Below, piece after piece: positions 13,371 to 62,882 of a DNA stretch of 64,000 bases. The position numbers and the translations under genes were made by a program. Below the pieces are notes generated by a model. It saw only the letters and a list, made by a program, of their open reading frames with translations. It searched no databases and had not been told where the DNA came from. Origin of the DNA: Jannaschia seosinensis (lineage in GTDB: Bacteria > Pseudomonadota > Alphaproteobacteria > Rhodobacterales > Rhodobacteraceae); assembly GCF_001408515.1 (NCBI RefSeq), contig NZ_CYPR01000231.1, forward strand, positions 1 through 64,000. Direction: 5' to 3'. Within the stretch, counting starts at the first letter, position 1, and each line of letters opens with the position of its first letter.

Positions 13371-14966
13371 ATGACTGACCGCCTCACCCTCTACGACACA
13401 ACGCTCCGCGATGGGCAGCAGACGCAGGGTGTCCAGTTCTCCGCCGCGGAAAAGCGCGAGATCGCGATCCTGCTCGACACGCTGGGCCTGGACTACATCG
13501 AGGGTGGGTGGCCCGGCGCGAACCCGACCGACAGCGAGTTTTTCGACGCCCCGCCCGCGACCTCCGCACGGCTCACCGCGTTCGGGATGACCAAGCGCAC
13601 GGGCCGGTCGGCCGAAAACGACGACACTCTCGCGGCCGTCATGAATGCGGGCACGGGCGCGGTCTGCATCGTTGGCAAGACGCATCCGTTCCATGTCGAG
13701 ACGGCGCTCGGAGTGACCCTCGACGAGAACCTCGAGAACATCTCGAAATCCATCGCCTACATTGTGGCACAGGGGCGTGAGGCGTTGTTCGACGCGGAAC
13801 ACTTCTTCGACGGCTACGAGGCCGCTCCCGCCTATGCCACCGCTTGCGTCATGGCCGCGCTCGAGGCCGGGGCGCGCTGGATCGTTCTGTGCGACACGAA
13901 TGGCGGCACGATGCCCACGCGCATCGGTGCGATCATCCGCGCCGTGATCGCGGCCGGCATTCCCGGCGAAAGGCTCGGGATTCACACCCACAACGACACC
14001 GAGCAGGCCGTCGCCGGATCCCTCGCCGCGATCGACGCGGGCGCACGGCAGGTTCAGGGTACACTCAACGGGTTGGGCGAACGGTGCGGAAATGCCAACC
14101 TGACGACGCTGATCCCGACGCTGCTGCTCAAGGAGCCCTATGCGTCGCAATACCTGACGGGGATCGACCGCGACCGGCTCCCTTCGCTTCTGCAGGTGTC
14201 GCGCAGGCTCGACGACATCCTCAACCGCGTGCCCCGGCGCGAGGCGGCTTATGTCGGCGCATCCGCCTTTACCCACAAGGCCGGGCTTCATGCCAGCGCC
14301 ATCGCCAAGGATCCGACAACCTACGAGCACATCCCGCCAGAGACTGTCGGCAACACCCGCCTCGTGCCCATGTCCAATCAGGCGGGCCTGTCGAACCTGC
14401 GGACCCGTCTCGCCGATGCGGGGCTCAAGGGCACGGACGATCAGCTTCGCCGCATCCTCTCCCGCGTGAAGTCCCGCGAGGATGAGGGCTACTCCTACGA
14501 CGTGGCGCCGGCCTCGTTCGAACTAATCGCCCGCTCGGAGTTGGGCCTGCTGCCCGACATGTTCGAGGTCGAGCGTTACCGCGTCAGCGTGGAGCGGCGG
14601 CGCGATGCGCGCGGCGCCGCCGTCACCCTGTCGGAGGCCGTCGTTGTCGTGCAGGTCGACGGAGAAAAACGGCTCTCCGTCTCCGAAAGTCTCGACGAGG
14701 TCGGGGCCGATCGCGGGCCGGTCAATGCGTTGTCGAAGGCGCTGGCCAAGGATCTCGGCTCCCTGCAGGACAGGATCGCCGACATGCGTCTGACCGACTT
14801 CCGCGTCCGGATCACTCAGGGCGGGACGGAGGCGGTCACGCGCGTCCTGATCGACCACGAAGACGATGCCGGGCAACACTGGACCACAGTGGGCGTGTCG
14901 CCGAACATCGTCGATGCCAGCTTCGAGGCCTTGATCGACGCGGTCCGCTGGAAGCTTCTGCATTGA
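13371..14966 (+). CDS. cimA: Citramalate synthase
   Basis: Condenses pyruvate and acetyl-CoA to (R)-citramalate, giving a threonine-independent route to isoleucine. The 531 residues resemble 2-isopropylmalate synthases: metal-binding YDTTLRDGQQTQGVQFS at the start, GIHTHNDTEQAVAGSLAAIDAGA and GTLNGLGERCGNANL in the barrel, then a C-terminal LeuA-type allosteric domain. An annotator might call it leuA, but the short N terminus and TLRDGQQTQGV pattern favour citramalate synthase. It connects with the ilvB/ilvN genes further right. Its stop overlaps the next start as TTGA. Confidence 0.92.
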   Translation: MTDRLTLYDTTLRDGQQTQGVQFSAAEKREIAILLDTLGLDYIEGGWPGANPTDSEFFDAPPATSARLTAFGMTKRTGRSAENDDTLAAVMNAGTGAVCIVGKTHPFHVETALGVTLDENLENISKSIAYIVAQGREALFDAEHFFDGYEAAPAYATACVMAALEAGARWIVLCDTNGGTMPTRIGAIIRAVIAAGIPGERLGIHTHNDTEQAVAGSLAAIDAGARQVQGTLNGLGERCGNANLTTLIPTLLLKEPYASQYLTGIDRDRLPSLLQVSRRLDDILNRVPRREAAYVGASAFTHKAGLHASAIAKDPTTYEHIPPETVGNTRLVPMSNQAGLSNLRTRLADAGLKGTDDQLRRILSRVKSREDEGYSYDVAPASFELIARSELGLLPDMFEVERYRVSVERRRDARGAAVTLSEAVVVVQVDGEKRLSVSESLDEVGADRGPVNALSKALAKDLGSLQDRIADMRLTDFRVRITQGGTEAVTRVLIDHEDDAGQHWTTVGVSPNIVDASFEALIDAVRWKLLH

Positions 14967-15718
14967 GTGACGCCGATCTCTCCGCCTGCGCCGCATTGCT
15001 CCATCGGGGCGACCCGGAGCGGTTTCGCGCCGTCATGGCGGCGCCCGTGCCGCTGCGCCGGATGCTTTTGCCGCTCTATGCGTTCAACCTGGAGGTCGCG
15101 CGCGCGCCGTGGGTCACGAAGGAGCCTTTGATCGCGCAGATGCGGCTGCAATGGTGGTCGGACGCTCTGGAGGAGATCGCGGCCGGCAAGACGCCGCGTC
15201 GGCACGAGGTGGTCACGCCGCTGGCCGAGGTGCTGGACATGCGGGGCGCGCGAGATCTCGAAACGCTCGTCGCGGCGCGGCAGGCGGATGTGGAGGGGCT
15301 GACGATCGGGCAGCTTTCCGACCTCACGCGCTACATCGATGGCACCTTGGGGACGCTGCTGTGGACGGCCGCGCGGCTTGCGGGAATGGAGGACGAATCC
15401 GCGGCACGCGATGCGGGACTGGCCCATGGTCTCGCGGCCTGGTTGACGGCGGCGCCGGATCTGACCGGGCGGGGGCGCACGACCCTGCCGCCTGGCGATT
15501 CGGCGGAGCGGACGCGCGAGCTGGCCGCCGAGGGGCGTACCGCGCTCGCCCGCTTCCGGCAGGCGCGCATTCCACGATCCGCCCGCCCGGTCTTCTTGGT
15601 TCTCTCGGACACGGAGATGCGTCTGCGCGCATTCGAAGCGGATCCCGAGCCGCCCGAGACGAACCCTGTACGCAGTCGTCTGCGACTGACGTGGAAGACG
15701 CTGATGGGGCGGGTCTAG
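14963..15718 (+). CDS. Squalene/phytoene synthase-like protein (complex I assembly factor type)
   Basis: 251 residues of the trans-isoprenyl diphosphate synthase fold (MLLPLYAFNLEVARA, MRLQWWSDALEEI). The aspartate-rich DxxxD motifs needed for prenyl diphosphate chemistry are not recognisable where phytoene synthases have them. This and the short length match the bacterial relatives of mitochondrial NDUFAF6, an assembly factor for NADH dehydrogenase. It should not be counted as carotenoid synthesis without further evidence. The start is TTG at 14963, overlapping the cimA stop, so translation is probably coupled. It ends convergent with the flavin reductase (4-base overlap). Confidence 0.75.
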   Translation: MSDADLSACAALLHRGDPERFRAVMAAPVPLRRMLLPLYAFNLEVARAPWVTKEPLIAQMRLQWWSDALEEIAAGKTPRRHEVVTPLAEVLDMRGARDLETLVAARQADVEGLTIGQLSDLTRYIDGTLGTLLWTAARLAGMEDESAARDAGLAHGLAAWLTAAPDLTGRGRTTLPPGDSAERTRELAAEGRTALARFRQARIPRSARPVFLVLSDTEMRLRAFEADPEPPETNPVRSRLRLTWKTLMGRV

Positions 15719-46265: not shown

Positions 46266-47684
46266 TCACCCCATCAGTCCCGGAAGCCACAGAACGATCC
46301 CCGGAAACAGGATCAGCACCGCCACCGTGACCACGTCGGCGACGAAGAACGGCGTCGCGCCGCGGAACACGTCCTGCACCGAGATGTCCATCTTGGCATC
46401 CTGCGCCACGCCGGCCACGACGAAGCAGTTCAGCCCGATCGGCGGCGTTATGAGACAAAGCTCCGCCATCTTGACCACGATGATCCCGAACCAGATCGCC
46501 GTCTCCTCATTCGTCATGCCAAGCGCGCCCACCTCCCCGCCGATGCCGCCATTGAGGGCCATGACCGCCGGGAAGGTGATCGGCAGGGTCAGGATCAGCA
46601 TGCCGATCGCATCCATGAACATCCCCAGGATCACATAAGCTCCGAGGATCATCAGCAGCACCAGATACGGCCCCATCTCCAGCGAGGTGATGAACTCCGC
46701 GAACGCGTCCGGCAGCTTGGCGAAGCCGAGGAAGCGCACGTAGATCAGCACGCCCCAGATCATCGCGAAGATCATCACCGTCAGCTTCGCCGCCTCCATC
46801 AGCGCACCCTTCAGGTCGCGCCAACGCATCCCGTGGCGCAGCGCCATGATCAGCACCACGCCCGCACCCAGCGCGCCCGCCTCGGTCGGCGTGGCCCAGC
46901 CGAAGTAAATCGAGTAGACGATGATGAAGACGACCAGCAGGATCGGCATCGCGCCGGGCAGGCTCTCGAACCGCTGCCGCCACGTGAAGCCGCCGACCGC
47001 CGGCCCGAGACTGGGCCGAGCCCGCGCAAGCCCGATCACCAGCGCCCCGTAGATCAGCGCCGAGACCATGCCGGGCAGGAACCCCGCCAGAAGCAGCTTG
47101 CCCACCGATTGCTCCACGATGATCGCATAGATCACGAGAATGGCCGAAGGTGGGATCAGGGAGGCGAGCGTGCCGCCCGCGGCCACGACGCCCGCGGCGA
47201 AACGCTTGTCATACCCCTCGCGCAGCATCTCGGGGATGGCGATGCGGGCAAAAACGGCCGAGGTCGCCACCGACGCGCCCGACACGGCCGCGAACCCCGC
47301 CGTGGCAAAGACGGTCGCGACCCCAAGGCCCCCCGGCGTCCAGCCGATCCACCGTTTCGCCGCCTCGAACAGGTGGCGCGTCAGCCCCGCGTAGTAAGCG
47401 AGGTAGCCGATCAGGATGAAAGTCGGGATCAGGCTCAGGGAATATTGCGTGGCCTTGGAATGGGGCACCTGCCCGGCGAGCTTGGCCGCCGTGACGAGGC
47501 CCCGGTCGAACCCCTGCTTTTGCATGAAGAAGGCGCACAGGCCCACGAAGCCGATAAAGGCCGCGGCAAAGGCCACCCGCACGCCGATCAGCACCAGCAA
47601 CAGCAAGAGCCCCGACAGCCACAGCGACAGTTCGAATATCGAGACGCCGTCGAGCAGCGCCCGCATGTCGATCAGATTGTCCAA
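46266..47684 (-). CDS. TRAP transporter large permease (DctM type)
   Basis: 472 residues with about 12-13 membrane spans, the transport-channel subunit. Typical stretches include FGWATPTEAGALGAG, GTLASLIPPSAILVIYAIIVEQSVGKLLLAGFLPG and the C-terminal ITPPIGLNCFVVAG. It couples uptake to a Na+ or H+ gradient. TTG at 47684 is chosen (GGGAG 8 bases upstream), leaving 1 base after the small permease stop. ATG 47666 is an alternative. Last of the three TRAP genes 49471-46266. Confidence 0.93.
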   Translation of the reverse strand: MDNLIDMRALLDGVSIFELSLWLSGLLLLLVLIGVRVAFAAAFIGFVGLCAFFMQKQGFDRGLVTAAKLAGQVPHSKATQYSLSLIPTFILIGYLAYYAGLTRHLFEAAKRWIGWTPGGLGVATVFATAGFAAVSGASVATSAVFARIAIPEMLREGYDKRFAAGVVAAGGTLASLIPPSAILVIYAIIVEQSVGKLLLAGFLPGMVSALIYGALVIGLARARPSLGPAVGGFTWRQRFESLPGAMPILLVVFIIVYSIYFGWATPTEAGALGAGVVLIMALRHGMRWRDLKGALMEAAKLTVMIFAMIWGVLIYVRFLGFAKLPDAFAEFITSLEMGPYLVLLMILGAYVILGMFMDAIGMLILTLPITFPAVMALNGGIGGEVGALGMTNEETAIWFGIIVVKMAELCLITPPIGLNCFVVAGVAQDAKMDISVQDVFRGATPFFVADVVTVAVLILFPGIVLWLPGLMG

Positions 47685-47685
47685 T

Positions 47686-48357
47686 TCAATCGCTCCCGTG
47701 GCGCGTCTGTCCGGCCAGCTCGGTTCCCGCGCCGATCGCGCCGACCGAAGCGGCTTCCTTCGAGGCCTGCTCGGCCGGATCCTCGGGCAGCGGCACCCCG
47801 ACGATCGCATCCCCGCCCAGCCGCAGACCGCGGCCATACGCCCAAAGCTGCACCACCAGCCGCAGCCACAGGACCGCGAACGCCACCGGCACGGCCAGCT
47901 TCGACGGCCACAGCGGCAGCGAGATGTCGATGGAACTGTCCGTCGACCAGTTCGGCGCCCCGAAATCGAACGACCGCATGAAGTGGAACCACGTCCCGTA
48001 GATCAACGCCGTGACCACCAGCAGCATGAACAGAACCGAAAGGAACTCGAACAGCCACAGCACGCGGCCCTTCAGGTTGCCCACCAGCAGGTCCATCCGG
48101 ATATGTCCGCCCTCGCGCTGCACGTAGGCGAGGCCGAGAAACGCGAAGACCGCCATGAACTGCTCGGTCCAGTCGATATAGCCCGGCACCGGCAGGTTCA
48201 GGAACTTGCGCATCAGCACGTTGGCGATGGCCAGAAGGACCAGCGCGAAGATCGTGATGCCCGAGGCGAGGTTCAGCGCGGCCTCCACCTTCAGAAGCGC
48301 GCGGTCGGTCCGCGACAGCGTTGTGCCGTCGGTCAGGACGCTGGATGGCGTGGTCAT
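47686..48357 (-). CDS. TRAP transporter small permease (DctQ type)
   Basis: 223 residues with four membrane spans (IFALVLLAIANVLMRKFL; MAVFAFLGLAYVQREGGHIRMDL; FEFLSVLFMLLVVTALIYG; a C-terminal span VAFAVLWLRLVVQLWAYG). The conserved GGHIRMDL segment marks the DctQ family. It forms the membrane complex with DctM. AAGGAGAG precedes the ATG at 48357. It lies between the binding-protein and large-permease genes. Confidence 0.92.
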   Translation of the reverse strand: MTTPSSVLTDGTTLSRTDRALLKVEAALNLASGITIFALVLLAIANVLMRKFLNLPVPGYIDWTEQFMAVFAFLGLAYVQREGGHIRMDLLVGNLKGRVLWLFEFLSVLFMLLVVTALIYGTWFHFMRSFDFGAPNWSTDSSIDISLPLWPSKLAVPVAFAVLWLRLVVQLWAYGRGLRLGGDAIVGVPLPEDPAEQASKEAASVGAIGAGTELAGQTRHGSD

Positions 48358-48463
48358 GTCTCTCCTTCGCCAGGGCGCGGATCTTCGCACCAGGCCGGAT
48401 TGTCCGTTCGAATTCGGGATGTGGCGGCGCGCGGGACCTGGGGTCAGGCCCCGCGCGAACGGC

Positions 48464-49471
48464 TCACTCGCTCTTGGCTTCGGCCAGGGTCGATTCCACG
48501 AGATCGTAAAGCTCCTGCCCCGGCAGGCCGTTGGCGGAGGCTTCCGCGATCCAGGCGTCGTGGATCGGCTGGGCCTGCGACCTCAGCTCCGCGATCTCCT
48601 CGGGGGAGACGCGAACCTTCTCGACGCCCTTCTCCTCGAGCGTGGCGTCCCAGTCCCGCAACAGCTCGGCGTAGTTCTCGAGGTAATACTCGATCGAATC
48701 GTCGACCGCCGCCTCGAGGATCTCCCGGTTTTCGTCCGAGAGCGATTCATAGGCGTCGATATTGACCACGATGGGGCAATTCACCGTGCCGGGATTGAGG
48801 TTCTCGGTCCACCAATCCGCGATGTCGAGCGTGCCGAAGGACAGGTGCGCATGCTGGGCAAAGGCCACGGAATCGACCACGCCGGCTTCCATCGCGTTAT
48901 AGGCCTCCGACGAGGTGACCGAGGTGGGCACCGCTCCCACCGCCGCGAACATCTCGCCCAAGCCGCCGGTGGCGCGCACGCGCATGCCGTCGAAGCTCTC
49001 GATCGTGTCGCGCGGTGCGCCGGTGCCGACCAGGTTGTACTGGGGCATCGGGCTGGTCATCAGCATCTTCGCGTTCCACTGCGCCATCTCATCGGCGACG
49101 GCGGGATGGTCGTAGACGGCGTGGCTGACGGCCACTTCCTGCTCCAGGTTCTCGACGCCGAGGAACGGCAGTTCCAGCACAGTGATCGCGCGGTTCTTGT
49201 CCTGATGGTAGCCGGCGCAGAACTGCGCCATCTCGAAGGCGCCGATGGAGATCCCGTCGAGGTTCTCGCGGTTGTTCGACAGGCCGCCATAGCTGATGTT
49301 CATGGTGAAATCGCCGTCCGAGCGCTCCTCGACCAGCTCGGCAAGCTTCTCGACATGCTCGGTGAAGGCGCGGCGCGTGCCCCAGACCGATACGTTCCAT
49401 TCCACGGCCATCGCCTCGCTTGCGAATGCGACGGTAAATGCCGCGACCGAGGCCTGCGTCAGGTATTTCAT
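48464..49471 (-). CDS. TRAP transporter substrate-binding protein (DctP type)
   Basis: 335 residues: signal peptide (residues 1-22, FASEAMA-V), then an extracytoplasmic solute receptor with RVRATGGLGEMFAAVGAVPTSVTSSEAYNAMEAGVVDSVAFAQ. The arginine in RVRATGG is the carboxylate clamp of DctP-family proteins, so the ligand is probably an organic acid. First gene of the TRAP operon. It is divergent from the HpcH/HpaI aldolase, which may act on the imported compound. Confidence 0.93.
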   Translation of the reverse strand: MKYLTQASVAAFTVAFASEAMAVEWNVSVWGTRRAFTEHVEKLAELVEERSDGDFTMNISYGGLSNNRENLDGISIGAFEMAQFCAGYHQDKNRAITVLELPFLGVENLEQEVAVSHAVYDHPAVADEMAQWNAKMLMTSPMPQYNLVGTGAPRDTIESFDGMRVRATGGLGEMFAAVGAVPTSVTSSEAYNAMEAGVVDSVAFAQHAHLSFGTLDIADWWTENLNPGTVNCPIVVNIDAYESLSDENREILEAAVDDSIEYYLENYAELLRDWDATLEEKGVEKVRVSPEEIAELRSQAQPIHDAWIAEASANGLPGQELYDLVESTLAEAKSE

Positions 49472-49581
49472 GATCGTCTCCCTTGTGTTGCGCGATCTCC
49501 CCGCCGCGCCTGTGCCGGGACGCTAAGGCAGGGGTCCGGTCTGGGCAAGACTTGCCTGCCGCCCGGCGCCGTGCCAACCCG

Positions 49582-56259: not shown

Positions 56260-56859
56260 ATGCGCCTTTTCCGATTCGCCGCGCTGACGGCGCTGGCCGC
56301 CGCGACCTGTGCCGAGGCCGCCACGGCCCAGACCGTTTCGACGCGTGGCCGCTCGGACGCGTTCGCCGCGCAGACGGCGCTGATCGACCGCCGGCTCTCG
56401 GCGCAGTACGCCCATTCCGAGCGTCTCCTGCCGACGCGGCCGGAGCGTGCCGCCGTGCCGGGCGCGGAGCCGATCCCGCGCTACGAGGGGCGCAGGTCGG
56501 CGTTCACCGACACCGCCCGGGCCGCCGCCCGGCGCAATGGCGTGCCGGAGGATCTGTTCCTGCGCCTCGTCCGGCAGGAGAGCGGATGGAACCCGGCGGC
56601 GCGGTCGCACAAGGGCGCGCTCGGCCTCGCGCAACTCATGCCCGGAACGGCGCGGGTTCTGGGGGTCGATGCAAACGATCCCGCGCAGAACCTCGAGGGT
56701 GGGGCGCGCTATCTGGCGATGCAATTCCGGAAGTTCGGGACGTGGCGGCTGGCGCTGGCGGCCTACAATGCCGGACCCGGCGCGGTGGAGCGTCACGGCG
56801 GTGTGCCACCCTACCGGGAGACACAGGGATACGTACAGGCGATCCTCGGGCAGGGTTGA
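56260..56859 (+). CDS. Lytic transglycosylase (SLT domain), exported
   Basis: 199 residues: signal peptide (1-22, ending ATA-Q), low-complexity middle part, then an SLT domain from about 90 with catalytic glutamate in [35 protein letters not shown] and the NPGP-type [15 protein letters not shown]. It cleaves peptidoglycan to leave 1,6-anhydromuramic ends. It starts divergently from ssb (190 bases apart). Confidence 0.9.
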
Positions 56860-56928: not shown

Positions 56929-57756
56929 TCAGGCCGCCTTGCGCGTGGTGTTGCGCTCGGGCTCCTTCGACAGGGTCATCGCGGTATAGCTCAGGATCAC
57001 CCCGAACACCGCCTTGGAGGTGACGTCGGCGAAGGTGTAGCCGCCCTGGCGGATCACGATCCAGGTCGAGGACTCGTTGATGCCGGGGATGCCGGGGACC
57101 AGATAGACGAGGCCGTAGATCGTCCAGGTGATCCACATCAGCGTCCACGCCGCGCCCATCAGCTTGGACGCTTCGCCACCCATGCGCGCGCGTCCTTCCT
57201 CCACGTTCTTGTAAAGCAGCCAGAGCAGCACGAGGAACGCGATCCAGCTGACGATGCCCCAGAACCAGAATCCGAAGGCGGATTCGTCGATGATGCCGGC
57301 GGCCTGCGGCTCGTAGTACTGACCGATATAGGCGGTCAGGATCATGAACACGCCGAGCGCCATAAGCTTCCACCAGCGCGAGAGCATGTCACGTCCGGCA
57401 AAACCCAAGACGACGAGAAGTTGCGTCATCAGCATGGGTACGTCGATCATCCAGTTCGCGTAGCGGTAGCCGTTGGCGAAGATGAAGCCCTCGGCGCGCG
57501 CATAGGTCATCGTGGTGATGTCGAATTCGAACGCCCGGTTCCACATCAGCCACAGCAGGAACAGCTCCAGCGTGGCCGAGATCATCACGACGCAGGAGAT
57601 GATCGATGCAAGGCGATAGCGCTCCGCCACCTGCCGCATGGTCAATGCGAAATAGACGAAGGCCGCCGCGAAGACGGCCGCGGTGAAGGCGAACATGTGG
57701 CGGACGACTTCGTACTGCCAATATTCGAAGGCAAAGAAGTTTTCATAATTCGGCAT
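56929..57756 (-). CDS. NDQ-type rhodopsin, predicted light-driven sodium pump
   Basis: 275 residues with seven membrane spans. Helix C reads NGYRYANWMIDVPML, placing Asn101, Asp105 and Gln112 at the proton-pump positions 85/89/96 of bacteriorhodopsin. This N-D-Q set is the signature of KR2-like Na+ pumps, and flanking sequence (NYENF at the start, TAYIGQYYE, ADVTSK) matches that class. Arg98, the counter-ion Asp244 and the retinal lysine Lys248 (YTFADVTSKAVFG) are present. The usual helix-F proline is Gly215 (WTIYG). It lies divergent from a TRAP transporter. No retinal or carotene genes are in the window. Confidence 0.93.
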   Translation of the reverse strand: MPNYENFFAFEYWQYEVVRHMFAFTAAVFAAAFVYFALTMRQVAERYRLASIISCVVMISATLELFLLWLMWNRAFEFDITTMTYARAEGFIFANGYRYANWMIDVPMLMTQLLVVLGFAGRDMLSRWWKLMALGVFMILTAYIGQYYEPQAAGIIDESAFGFWFWGIVSWIAFLVLLWLLYKNVEEGRARMGGEASKLMGAAWTLMWITWTIYGLVYLVPGIPGINESSTWIVIRQGGYTFADVTSKAVFGVILSYTAMTLSKEPERNTTRKAA

Positions 57757-57965
57757 CGGCAGAATCCCCTGCGTGTTGGTGGTTCAGCAGGCAATGATCA
57801 TGCTGCGCGATGGTTCCGCGACGTCCGGCCGCAGGCGCTTGAGCCGGCGACCGTGAAGGGTTGAATGCGACGGGCCTTTGTATTGTTGTGCAAGGAGTCG
57901 CGCTGTAAACGGTGCGACGTGTCGTCGCGACGCCGCGGCGGCACAGAAAAAACTGGGAGGAACTA

Positions 57966-59051
57966 ATGGACCGTCGTTCATTTCTGAAGAATTCGACGAT
58001 CGGGGCCGGTGCCGCCGGCACCGCCGCGCTCGCCGCACCGGCCTATGCACAGGGCAACCGCACACTGACCCTGGTGACGACATGGGGCCGTGGCCTCGCC
58101 GGCGTGCACGACAGCGCGCAATACGCCGCCGACAAGATCACCGCCCTGACGGACGGGCAACTGACGGTCGACCTGCGCGCGGCGGGCGAACTTGTCGGTG
58201 CGTTCGAAGTGTTCGACGCCGTCTCCTCCGGGCAGGCGGACATGTATCACGGGGTCGATTACTACTTCCTCGGCACGGACCCGTCGCTGTCGTTCTTCTC
58301 GCAGATCCCGTTCGGCATGACGTTCATGGAGTTCAACAACTGGTTCTACCACGATGGCGGGCGCGAACTGGCCGATGAGCTCTACTCCATCTACGGCCTC
58401 AAGGCGTTCCCGGCGGGCAATACCGGCCCGCAATCGGGCGGCTGGTTCCAGAGCCCGATCAACTCCCCTGAGGACTTCCAGGGCCTGAAATTCCGGATGC
58501 CGGGGCAGGGCGGACAGGTTCTCAGCAAGCTGGGCGCATCGGTGCAGAACCTGCCGGGTGCGGAAGTGTACCAGGCGCTGTCGACGGGCGCGATCGAGGG
58601 GACCGAGTGGATCGGACCCTGGGCCGACGAGAAGGCCGGCTTCCAGGAGATCTCGAAGATCTACTACCCCGCCGGCTTCCACGAGCCTGGCCCGAACCTG
58701 AACCTCGTGTTCAACCTTGACGTCTACGAGAGCCTGACGCCGACGCAGCAGCAGATCGTCCAGGAAGTCGCGCGTGCCGACAATCTTTGGACGACGACGC
58801 TGTTCATGGCCAATAACGGTGCGGCGCTGCAGCGCCTGCAACAGGGCGGCGTGGAGCTCTACGAATTCTCCGACGAGGTCTGGGACGCGTTCGGCCAAGC
58901 CGCGCAGGAAGTCGTCCAGGAGCCGACGAGCGACGAGTTCTACAAGCGCGTCTACGACAGCTATCAGTCGTCGCTGGAGAAGTCCGCGCAGTGGATCGGC
59001 CGCTCGCAGGGAACCTTCACCGAGCAGCGGGACCGCGTTCTCGGCATCTGA
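57966..59051 (+). CDS. TRAP substrate-binding protein, TakP/FcbT1 type
   Basis: 361 residues. Tat signal RRSFLKNSTIGAGAAG (twin arginine at 3-4) with cleavage near AYA-Q. The mature part has TWGRGLAGVHDSAQYAAD, LKFRMPGQGGQVLSKLG (carboxylate-binding arginine) and GAIEGTEWIGPWADEKAGFQE. This is the COG4663-type group that includes Rhodobacter TakP, which binds 2-oxo acids together with a Na+ ion. GGGAGG lies 6 bases before the ATG. First of three TRAP genes, divergent from the NDQ rhodopsin (209 bases apart). Confidence 0.9.
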   Translation: MDRRSFLKNSTIGAGAAGTAALAAPAYAQGNRTLTLVTTWGRGLAGVHDSAQYAADKITALTDGQLTVDLRAAGELVGAFEVFDAVSSGQADMYHGVDYYFLGTDPSLSFFSQIPFGMTFMEFNNWFYHDGGRELADELYSIYGLKAFPAGNTGPQSGGWFQSPINSPEDFQGLKFRMPGQGGQVLSKLGASVQNLPGAEVYQALSTGAIEGTEWIGPWADEKAGFQEISKIYYPAGFHEPGPNLNLVFNLDVYESLTPTQQQIVQEVARADNLWTTTLFMANNGAALQRLQQGGVELYEFSDEVWDAFGQAAQEVVQEPTSDEFYKRVYDSYQSSLEKSAQWIGRSQGTFTEQRDRVLGI

Positions 59052-59474
59052 GCCGGGAGAGTGCGGACGCCGCCGAAAGTGCGGCCGGCGTTCGCATTTC
59101 TCCGTCCTGCGGCTTTTTTAGCTGTTCCACTTGGGCGGGCCGTTCGCTACGGTCCGCCCGAATTACGTGTGAGCGTGGATACCGTGCCGGGAGAGCAGGG
59201 AGCCGCAATTGCGATGGGGGGATGCTTGGACAATCGTTCAATCCTGAAAAGTTTTGTGTCCGGTGCGAAGTTGGCGCGGGACTGCGTGACAGGCTGTTGC
59301 GCGACGACCGGAGGCCAACGTGCCGCGGGCGTTTGCCCCACATTGCACGAACGCGTGCCAAGCTGACGCAAACGGACCCGTTCCCCGTGTCGGGGAGGGG
59401 CCGCTCACATGTTCTGCGGCATGATCCTCCGAATGGGTCGGGCCGCATCCAAGGGATTTCCGGGAGAGTTCGGG
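59052..59474 (+). other. Gap with two hairpins between TRAP genes
   Basis: 423 bases without a supported gene. Hairpin 1: GCGGACGCCG (59063-59072)/CGGCGTTCGC (59086-59095), with T6 at 59114-59119. Hairpin 2: GGGCGGGCCG (59133-59142)/CGGTCCGCCC (59150-59159), each with one G-U pair. They may partly stop transcription so that the binding protein is made in excess over the permeases, or protect its mRNA 3' end. Confidence 0.55.
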
Positions 59475-60470
59475 ATGGAAGAGGACGCAGCCTGCACGGG
59501 GTTCTTCGCACCGGCCGAAGAGGGGACGCGCGCCTGTCTCGACGCATTTCGCGACGGCGGGCCGATCCAGTGGGTGCTGGGTCATCTGTTCGAGGCGCCG
59601 TTCAACCTCGTCTTCGCCTTGTCCGATCCGTCGTCGTGGCTGGCTTGGACGCAGGACTTCTCCGAGCCGGAATCGAAGCAGTCCTTGGTGCGGCTGATCT
59701 ATTACGGCGCCTCGGCGGAGCTGTTCTTCGTGCTGTTCTGGATCTTCGCGGGGATCACGATCGGCGGCTATTTCTCGCGCCGGTTCCTGTGGTCCATCGT
59801 GCGCGGCACCGAAAGCACGATGAACGTCATCGGCCGGGTCGCCGCCTGGGCCGGGCTTCTCATGGTGCTGCAGCAGGTGCTGATCGTGTTCCTGCAGCGG
59901 ATCTTCCGGGTTTCGGAAATCTCGATCGGCCCGTTCGGCACGACCTTTACGCGTGACCTGTCGTGGTATTCCGAAGAACTGAAGCTCTATAACGCGATCA
60001 TCGTGTGCCTGTGTGTCGCCTGGACCTTCATCCAGGGCGGGCATGTGCGCGTCGATCTCGTCTATTCCGCCGTCGGCCACCGCACGAAGCGCGCCATCGA
60101 CATGTTCGGCAGCCTCTTCTTCATGGTGCCGGCGCTGGTGCTGATCTGGCTCTACGGCTGGTTCTATCTCTGGGGCAGTCTGATCAGCCCCCGGCTGGGC
60201 GCGGACATGACGCTCGACACGCTGCTCACACGCTCGCGCGGGGTGCGCTGGAACGTGGAGACCATCGGGTTCAGTCCCAACGGCTTCGACGCTTACTGGA
60301 TGTTCAAGGTGCTGATTGCGCTGTTCGCGGTGACGGCGATGGTGCAGGCCGTGAACTTCTTCTGGCGGTCGTGGCTGGAATACCGCGAGGGCGAGCTGAG
60401 CGCGGGCCGCTATCTCGACCGTGACGTCCTCGGCGACGAAGACGCAGAAAAAACCGCCAACATACACTGA
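59475..60470 (+). CDS. TRAP small permease, FcbT2 type
   Basis: 331 residues, longer than classical DctQ because of an N-terminal extension with a first amphipathic/membrane part (LVRLIYYGASAELFFVLFWIFAGITIGGYFSRRFLW). Four core spans follow, with FIQGGHVRVDLVYSAVG (DctQ signature) near residue 195. This length is typical of the mannitol/chloroaromatic TRAP class. ATG 59475 is chosen for GGGAGAG 6 bases upstream. ATG 59409 and others are in frame. Confidence 0.88.
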   Translation: MEEDAACTGFFAPAEEGTRACLDAFRDGGPIQWVLGHLFEAPFNLVFALSDPSSWLAWTQDFSEPESKQSLVRLIYYGASAELFFVLFWIFAGITIGGYFSRRFLWSIVRGTESTMNVIGRVAAWAGLLMVLQQVLIVFLQRIFRVSEISIGPFGTTFTRDLSWYSEELKLYNAIIVCLCVAWTFIQGGHVRVDLVYSAVGHRTKRAIDMFGSLFFMVPALVLIWLYGWFYLWGSLISPRLGADMTLDTLLTRSRGVRWNVETIGFSPNGFDAYWMFKVLIALFAVTAMVQAVNFFWRSWLEYREGELSAGRYLDRDVLGDEDAEKTANIH

Positions 60471-60524
60471 CCGGGCGCAGATCCGGCACGAGATGCGGCG
60501 GCGGCGCCGCGGGGGACACAGGAA

Positions 60525-62882
60525 ATGATCTTCGGCCTCGACGGCGTTGAAATCGGCATCATCATCGTCTTCCTGACGCTGTTCGGTGCCATCATGTCCG
60601 GCTTTCCGGTCGCCTTCTCGATCGGCGGCGCGGGCGTCATCAGCTTCGCGATCATCGCCGCCCTCGACAGTGCCGGCATCCTGATCCATCAGGCCATCGA
60701 TACCGGGTCCGCGCAATATTCCGGCCTCGTCGCCGAAGGGGTGGCGCGCGAGGCGATCTCCATCTTCAGATATCCGGAGCTGCCGCGGATCGAGGAGCCG
60801 CTGTTCGCGCGCGGGTGGGAGGATTCGATCAACCGCGAGCTGGGCCTGATCATCCAGCGTATGAACGAGCGGGTCATCGCCGGCGCCTCGATCGAGACGC
60901 TGCTGGCGGTGCTGATGTTCGTGATGATGGGCATCACGCTGGAGCGCTCGAAGATCGCCAACGACCTGCTGACGACGATGGCGCGGGTATTTGGCCCGTT
61001 GCCCGGCGGTCTGGCCGTGTCGATCGTGATCGTGGGCGCGTTCCTCGCCGCCTCGACCGGCATCGTCGGCGCGACGGTGGTGACGATGGGGCTGCTGGCC
61101 CTGCCGACGATGTTGCGCAACAACTACTCCCCCGAACTCGCCACGGGCGTCATCGCCGCCTCGGGCACGCTGGGGCAGATCATTCCGCCCTCGATCGTGA
61201 TCGTCCTTCTCGGCACGCTGGCGGGCGACATCTATTCCACCTCGCAGGAGGCGCGGGCGCAGGCTGTCGGCTGTGGCGATGCGCTGACATATCTGGGGCA
61301 GCCGGCGGTTGTCTCGGTCGGCACGCTGTTTCAGGCGGCGCTGCTGCCGGGCATCTTCCTGGCCTTTCTCTACGGTGCGTATTCCTTCGGCTTCGCATTG
61401 GTGAACCCGTCCAAGGCGCCTGCGGTGCGGCTTGAGGGCGGGCGGTCCTCGACCACCACGCGCGACGATGCGCTGCTCTGGTTCCTTGCCGTGCCGGTCG
61501 TCCTGATCGGCGGTGTCGTGGCGCTGAGCCTCGTGGACGTGATCGGCAGCCAGTCGATCAACGTCTCGGCTTTCTCGCAGGCAAGCGAGGGCGCGTCGTT
61601 GCGCACGAACGTCTCGGATGCCTGCAAGGCCGCGATGATCGATCTGCACGGCCAGGTCGCCTGGGACGCGGCGGTCGCCCAGCAGGAGGCGATCAACCAG
61701 GCCGGCGGTGCGCAGCTCGCGCGGGCCCGGACGCCCGAGGAGATGATGGAGGCCCGCACCCTCGCCATCCTGTCGGCCCCGCCGATCGGGACGGGCGTGG
61801 CGGTCCTGTTCCTTCTCTTCGCGCTGACGCTGGCGGTGGCGCGGGGCATCGCGCCGCTGGAGGATGGGCGGCCCCTCGTGATCGGGGCCGTGGGGGTCGC
61901 CTTGGCGATCGCGGCGGACCTCGCGCTGATCGGGCCGACAACGTCGTCGGGGGCCGCGTTCCTGATCCTAGCCATTCCGACGGCCATCACGCTTTACGGC
62001 GTTGCCGAAGCGGCGCGGCGGCTCTCGCGCAACGAATTGCTGCGCGTGGTCTTTCCGCCGCTCGTGCTGATCGTCGCGGTGCTCGGCTCGATCCTCGGCG
62101 GGATCACCAATCCCACGCCGGCGGCGGCTCTGGGCGCGGCGGGGGCGATCATGCTCGCCGCCTATCGCAAGCTGGGCGAGGAAGGACGCGGCGGCGGCTG
62201 GATCCTACTCGCCACGCTGGGCCTTGCGGTCATGCTTCTGGTTGGCGTGAACTTCGACCTTCGCTCCGGGCTGGCGACGACGACGGTGGCGAATCGGATC
62301 GCGCTGTTCGTGACGCAGATCGCGTATCATGCCGCGTTCCTCGGCCTGCTCTACGCGTGCTGGGTGCTCTTGCGCAGCGGTGTGCTGGGGCCCGTGGTGC
62401 GGGAGACGGCGAAGGTGACGTCGATGGTCTTCACCATCCTGATCGGCTCCCAGCTTCTCAACCTCGTGCTGATCTCCTTCGGGGGCGAGCACTACATTCA
62501 GCAATTCCTGCTCAGCTTTGACAGCGAGCTGAAGGTGTTTCTGATCGTGATGCTGGTGCTGTTCGTGCTGGGCTTCGTGCTCGACTTCCTCGAGATCATC
62601 TACATCGTCATCCCGATCGTCGGTCCCGTCATCTACGGGGGCACGTTCGATCCGAAATGGGTGACGATCATGATCGCGGTGAACCTGCAGACGTCGTTCC
62701 TGACGCCGCCCTTCGGCTTCGCGCTGTTCTACCTGCGCGGGGTCGCCCCGGCGAGCGTCACGACCGGTCACATCTATCGCGGTGTGCTGCCTTTCGTACT
62801 GATCCAGGTGCTGGGGCTGGCAATCCTGTGGGCGTTTCCGGCGATCGTGACCATCGTTCCGAGCCTCCTTCCCAACAACTGA
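60525..62882 (+). CDS. TRAP large permease, FcbT3 type
   Basis: 785 residues with many membrane spans, the large-permease class of mannitol/chloroaromatic TRAP systems. It is extended by two hydrophilic inserts (about 65-110 and 345-405) and extra spans in the middle compared with 430-residue DctM. Core motifs: TGIVGATVVTMGLLALPTML, GTLGQIIPPSIVIVLLG, and the C-terminal DPKWVTIMIAVNLQTSFLTPPFGFALFYLRGVAP. It follows the small permease after 54 bases. Transport is expected to be driven by Na+. Confidence 0.92.
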   Translation: MIFGLDGVEIGIIIVFLTLFGAIMSGFPVAFSIGGAGVISFAIIAALDSAGILIHQAIDTGSAQYSGLVAEGVAREAISIFRYPELPRIEEPLFARGWEDSINRELGLIIQRMNERVIAGASIETLLAVLMFVMMGITLERSKIANDLLTTMARVFGPLPGGLAVSIVIVGAFLAASTGIVGATVVTMGLLALPTMLRNNYSPELATGVIAASGTLGQIIPPSIVIVLLGTLAGDIYSTSQEARAQAVGCGDALTYLGQPAVVSVGTLFQAALLPGIFLAFLYGAYSFGFALVNPSKAPAVRLEGGRSSTTTRDDALLWFLAVPVVLIGGVVALSLVDVIGSQSINVSAFSQASEGASLRTNVSDACKAAMIDLHGQVAWDAAVAQQEAINQAGGAQLARARTPEEMMEARTLAILSAPPIGTGVAVLFLLFALTLAVARGIAPLEDGRPLVIGAVGVALAIAADLALIGPTTSSGAAFLILAIPTAITLYGVAEAARRLSRNELLRVVFPPLVLIVAVLGSILGGITNPTPAAALGAAGAIMLAAYRKLGEEGRGGGWILLATLGLAVMLLVGVNFDLRSGLATTTVANRIALFVTQIAYHAAFLGLLYACWVLLRSGVLGPVVRETAKVTSMVFTILIGSQLLNLVLISFGGEHYIQQFLLSFDSELKVFLIVMLVLFVLGFVLDFLEIIYIVIPIVGPVIYGGTFDPKWVTIMIAVNLQTSFLTPPFGFALFYLRGVAPASVTTGHIYRGVLPFVLIQVLGLAILWAFPAIVTIVPSLLPNN

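Follow-up and report, generated by a model that had tools for sequence, protein, structure and literature searches.

A predicted Subgroup 2 sodium-pumping rhodopsin beside a resident TakP-type TRAP transporter in Jannaschia seosinensis

The window analysed here, the first 64,000 nucleotides of contig NZ_CYPR01000231.1 of Jannaschia seosinensis, carries a rhodopsin gene whose sequence makes it very likely that the product is a Subgroup 2 (ErNaR-like) NDQ sodium pump, lying divergently beside a complete TRAP transporter (Table 1). The explanation that we hold with considerable confidence is that this pump was gained and feeds a general Na+ circuit of the cell, while its TRAP neighbour is incidental. 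The pump itself is very likely real and is probably used. According to PMC11006869, SrNaR and ErNaR are the only Na+ pumps of this subgroup to have been studied, and the window protein is a further member, from Rhodobacterales. The findings also correct the tempting story of a pump coupled to the TRAP transporter next to it, and the TrkH genes that lie beside several of its relatives offer a testable clue to the purpose of Subgroup 2 pumps.

Table 1. Features of the rhodopsin region, in window positions
Feature	Position	Strand	Evidence
SLT (lytic transglycosylase) gene, bounding the variable rhodopsin slot on the side away from takP	56260..56859	+	domain match, synteny
NDQ rhodopsin, Subgroup 2 (ErNaR-like), predicted light-driven Na+ pump	56929..57756	-	ORF, Pfam, residues, structure matches, tree
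Gap of 209 bases between the divergent rhodopsin and takP genes	57757..57965		coordinates, promoter scan
takP, TRAP substrate-binding protein, Tat-type leader	57966..59051	+	DctP E=1.8e-51
takQ, TRAP small membrane subunit	59409..60470	+	DctQ E=4.7e-9
takM, TRAP large membrane subunit, 785 aa	60525..62882	+	DctM E=4.8e-58

Residues and placement of the rhodopsin

The rhodopsin frame is open over 275 aa, matches Pfam Bac_rhodopsin at E=4.5e-32 and has all of its key residues. Reading the translation by position gives R98, N101, D105, Q112, D244 and K248, i.e. the R/N/D/Q/D/K that stand in KR2 at 109, 112, 116, 123, 251 and the retinal lysine, and so bears out the Asn101/Asp105/Gln112, Asp244 and Lys248 of the first-pass annotation. 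The same reading also gives a glutamate, E64, which that annotation did not mention, at the position of KR2 L74. In PMC11006869, where 351 NDQ sequences are given, NDQ rhodopsins are divided at exactly this position, Leu or Ile marking Subgroup 1 and Glu Subgroup 2; because of Glu64 we assign the window rhodopsin to Subgroup 2, and the tree agrees with the assignment. The earlier description of a KR2-type Na+ pump set therefore holds insofar as the protein falls in the NDQ clade, but Glu64 makes it ErNaR-type rather than KR2-type. When compared with the sequences of solved structures, the best chains were 9tbf, 8qle and 9tbd (E about 2e-72), with 8jh0 (4.7e-47), KR2 (4xtl, 1.3e-44) and NTQ-type chloride pumps (8.2e-43 and below) ranking lower; PDB 8QLE is ErNaR (PMC11006869), from Erythrobacter sp. 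HL-111.

The tree was built from 17 rhodopsins, 12 of them NDQ and five of them DTE proteins of Rhodobacteraceae; chloride pumps were compared through the structure matches only. The NDQ and DTE proteins are split at 100/100, and the window rhodopsin is on the NDQ side. KR2, 8jh0 and four spirochaete proteins, all with L at position 64, make up one 100/100 group apart from the proteins with E64, which are those of the window, Loktanella, G272 (the only other genome with an NDQ rhodopsin in our family and order samples), Erythrobacter and Aurantiacibacter together with ErNaR; the branching of the window rhodopsin among these is drawn open. In identity it is closest to the rhodopsin of Loktanella sp. 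SALINAS62 (58%), followed by those of G272 (57%), ErNaR (48%) and KR2 (37%). ErNaR and the window protein have E64, N101, D105 and Q112 under the same numbers as well as a common N-terminal MP..ENF start, but the window protein has F91 where ErNaR has E91, a residue in contact with R19 (PMC11006869), and the gene neighbourhoods of the two differ. With KR2 of Krokinobacter eikastus, a Subgroup 1 protein, the NDQ set and the Schiff-base Asp and Lys are held in common, but KR2 has L where the window protein has E64. If the window protein works in the manner of ErNaR, light would isomerise the retinal on K248, Na+ from the cytoplasm would be moved outward past N101, D105 and Q112, and E64 would lower the pKa of D105, leaving the pumping little dependent on pH. 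The resulting Na+ gradient would be available to whatever Na+-coupled systems the cell has, be they TRAP transporters, Na+/H+ antiporters or Na+ symporters.

The TRAP neighbour and the history of the slot

As the first-pass annotation had described, a complete TRAP set lies in opposite orientation across a gap of 209 bases, the DctP, DctQ and DctM genes standing together at 57966-62882. Its binding protein had been called TakP-type, and this is upheld: the best solved relative is TakP/SmoM of Rhodobacter sphaeroides (2hzk, E=7.9e-73), with which the window TakP aligns over its length, and the six residues by which pyruvate and a cation are bound in the R. sphaeroides protein, Tyr100, Gln156, Arg177, Glu214, Trp215 and Glu240 (PMC1839085), are all kept, with the same letters and the same numbers. 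The window set differs from its R. sphaeroides counterpart in that it adjoins a rhodopsin gene, and 2-oxo acids are its predicted substrate. By analogy with a sialic-acid TRAP, for which a Na+ gradient is reported to be required (PMC9352664), the window TakPQM may well be driven by Na+. A promoter and terminator scan of the intergenic stretch returned nothing better than shuffled sequences, the one weak sigma-70-like match, on the rhodopsin strand at 57909-57882, standing against 0.5 expected in shuffles. The minus strand of the window holds another TRAP set at 46269-49522, distant in sequence and with no rhodopsin, which our TakP and TakM profiles did find.

The genus sample consisted of 20 genomes, that of J. 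seosinensis included. TakM is present in all of them, with 75-83% identity in the other 19, whereas the rhodopsin is present in one. We compared stretches of 13.4-13.5 kb around TakM from the 19 relatives (L037-L055). In 17 of them takPQM is found beyond the SLT gene, and in the other two (L043 and L046) no SLT match lies within the compared stretch. What stands between the SLT gene and takP varies: a Cache-domain histidine kinase and a LuxR-type response regulator, which are probably regulators of the TRAP, are in this slot or beside takP in 14 of the 19; further genes are present in some, e.g. a molybdopterin oxidoreductase in L054; and in five the slot measures only 137-300 bases. In the window the slot is 1106 bases long with the rhodopsin, and holds no kinase or regulator match. 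A second takP copy is present in some genomes of the genus.

The TakPs of the window and of three relatives (G017, G010 and G016) form a 100/100 clade. These relatives are among the five without the kinase and regulator pair and are also without a rhodopsin, so the kinase-less takP allele exists without a rhodopsin. The simplest order of events is a loss or replacement at takP and then the arrival of the rhodopsin, which would have come to lie in the variable stretch that separates the SLT gene from a resident takPQM. That the rhodopsin had itself replaced a TRAP-linked two-component system was also considered, and is weakened by the same clade mates. The terminal branch leading to the window TakP measures 0.23, long beside the 0.054 of its sister. 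This allele could in principle have been selected along with the rhodopsin after the gain. Base composition neither proves nor excludes transfer of the rhodopsin gene, its third-position G+C being equal to that of its neighbours (0.877 vs 0.865 for takP). Contamination is unlikely because the genes on either side of the rhodopsin are syntenic in the genus.

Retinal source in the genome

The genome has one BCD-family gene (contig C160:65146-65913; L056:9323-10456), and it scores above the NCBIfam cut-off for Blh (165.4 vs 95.25 bits). This retinal-forming Brp/Blh type is confined, among the 20 genomes of the genus, to the one that bears the rhodopsin, which argues that the rhodopsin works. The blh gene adjoins dcd and fabH/plsX, without neighbouring crt genes, and an NhaA-type antiporter gene is about 6 kb off. 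From this distribution it would seem that the rhodopsin was gained by one lineage of the genus, and that blh was gained with it, or later, elsewhere in the genome. The window would then present a Subgroup 2 pump on its own, with no crt genes nearby and with blh as the only companion gained, at another place in the genome.

The matter of a retinal source, raised at first pass, is accordingly settled in part: Blh is there, but a lycopene cyclase was not found. The Lycopene_cycl matches in the genome are short and reach at best 21.3 bits vs a cut-off of 23.4, and with the same family the CrtY proteins of G272 and Loktanella score 195.7 and 199.6 bits; a CrtY protein query matched nothing in the genome at E<=0.01, and neither did PF18916, with cyclases of the CruA/CruP kind lying outside this search. 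Carotenoid-like genes are present on another contig (C207; L068:5456-12003), where an HpnE is over its cut-off, two crtI-family proteins score 531.9 and 422.8 bits, and the HpnD-like (234.9 bits, cut-off 278.6) and HpnC-like (222.1 bits, cut-off 250.45) proteins are both under theirs. By appearance this make-up is what we take to be a squalene-derived C30 carotenoid pathway, and none of the carotenoid-like genes of the genome could be identified as a C40 phytoene synthase. A glycosyltransferase gene lies beside these hpnC-, hpnD- and hpnE-like genes and the two desaturases. The window itself has a squalene/phytoene synthase family protein (14963-15718, plus strand; PF00494, 74.8 bits), far below the HpnD cut-off. 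Since the assembly is in 253 contigs and is 98.66% complete, a small crt cluster could be absent from it. The beta-carotene may come from a crt cluster missed by the assembly, or beta-carotene or retinal may be taken up, or an unrecognised enzyme may be at work.

Relatives of the rhodopsin, their neighbours and the role of the pump

Rhodopsin matches at E<=1e-20 were found in seven of 394 family genomes and seven of 390 order genomes, and in the class sample, at E<=1e-40, in the genome of the window only (1/385); all three samples were drawn evenly and cover part of the species. Among the 10 distinct genomes matched in family and order, two are NDQ, the window's own and G272, and eight are DTE, in agreement with the earlier expectation that NDQ rhodopsins are rare among these relatives. 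A tblastn search of plasmids for close relatives had two Polymorphobacter records, with 31% identity, as its sole result. A scan of 84,980 genomes with a single protein query, which by design finds close relatives only, gave seven loci, and these with G272 make up the eight NDQ loci other than that of the window. Four of the eight are on spirochaete contigs of 5.6-15.2 kb (L012-L015), whose rhodopsins are of Subgroup 1, with L at position 64; the other four are the Subgroup 2 loci with context. At none of the eight did the TakP and TakM profiles find a TRAP gene (E<=0.01), so that, as far as could be tested, adjacency of rhodopsin and TRAP is not conserved in other genomes, and all 19 genus relatives have the TRAP without the rhodopsin. 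In the open-licence literature we found no paper on both a sodium-pumping rhodopsin and a TRAP transporter, and none that joins Loktanella, rhodopsin and a sodium pump.

The Subgroup 2 loci have other neighbours. The order in Loktanella sp. SALINAS62 (L009) is TrkH, TrkA_N, NaR, crtE, crtI, crtB, crtY, blh, the first three in one direction, and in G272 (L003/L057) it is NaR, crtI, crtB, crtY, blh. Both rhodopsins have E64 and the NDQ set and are from the same bacterial order as that of the window, but beside the window rhodopsin all of these genes are missing. In an Erythrobacter and in Aurantiacibacter sediminis a divergent TrkH adjoins the NaR, which brings to three of four the other Subgroup 2 loci with context where this cation-transport gene is beside the rhodopsin. 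The TrkH proteins of the three loci are 25-32% alike. TrkH was not detected at G272, in the window or at the four spirochaete Subgroup 1 loci, which are on short contigs. Of the open-licence papers that a literature search with TrkH returned, none had a title on NaR gene neighbourhoods.

The first-pass annotation had proposed a unit of two parts, in which the rhodopsin and TakPQM would be co-regulated from the 209-base region and a light-made Na+ gradient would drive the uptake of 2-oxo acids. That the two are adjacent and divergent, that TakP keeps the Na+/pyruvate residues of its R. sphaeroides relative and that the sialic-acid TRAP needs a Na+ gradient all speak for such a unit, but the TRAP is genus-wide and the rhodopsin is not, TRAP genes are undetected at the other NDQ loci, the promoter scan is at chance level and the second TRAP-like set of the window has no rhodopsin. 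With its context giving it no support, we reject the unit as the leading reading on distribution and neighbourhood, and judge it improbable. It is very unlikely, too, that the gained pump was recruited to a resident 2-oxo-acid TRAP without its usual divergent kinase and regulator, such that light, not two-component sensing, would set the uptake by TakPQM. Given that the Subgroup 2 loci with context are four, it is possible that a linkage to TRAP is limited to close, unsampled relatives. That the two adjoin is most likely incidental, the rhodopsin being one of the fillings found in a variable slot; TakPQM may possibly gain from a larger Na+ gradient as other Na+ carriers would, and for this adjacency is not needed. 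We also consider it unlikely that the strain makes a rhodopsin apoprotein without chromophore from a gene that is being lost. That neither the two Pfam families nor the protein query brought up a lycopene cyclase, and that the carotenoid genes found are of the squalene (C30) type, point that way, but the intact frame and residues, a Blh exclusive to the rhodopsin-bearing genome, an assembly that could lack a small crt cluster and a rhodopsin reported to work in another bacterium without known retinal genes (PMC7734400) argue against it.

An alternative to our preferred reading of a pump that feeds a general Na+ circuit takes in its relatives as well. Subgroup 2 NaRs may belong to a module for light-driven Na+/K+ balance with K+ uptake by TrkH/TrkA, from which the window copy would have lost its partner and would work alone. 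We offer this tentatively, as a possibility somewhat short of probable: the shared direction of TrkH, TrkA_N and NaR in Loktanella sp. SALINAS62 and the divergent TrkH, of so dissimilar sequence, in the two other genera favour it, but TrkH is missing from G272, the window and the spirochaete loci, the two Erythrobacteraceae cases may be a single inherited arrangement, and the K+ selectivity of these TrkH proteins is putative. Within a small sample, the TrkH neighbourhood is nonetheless a better-supported lead than TRAP on the role of Subgroup 2 pumps. TrkH directly adjoins a Subgroup 2 NaR in three genera and in two orientations (L009:7921-9847, L010:8490-9983 and L011:8425-9849), and a Na+:alanine symporter gene lies farther along at the Aurantiacibacter locus.
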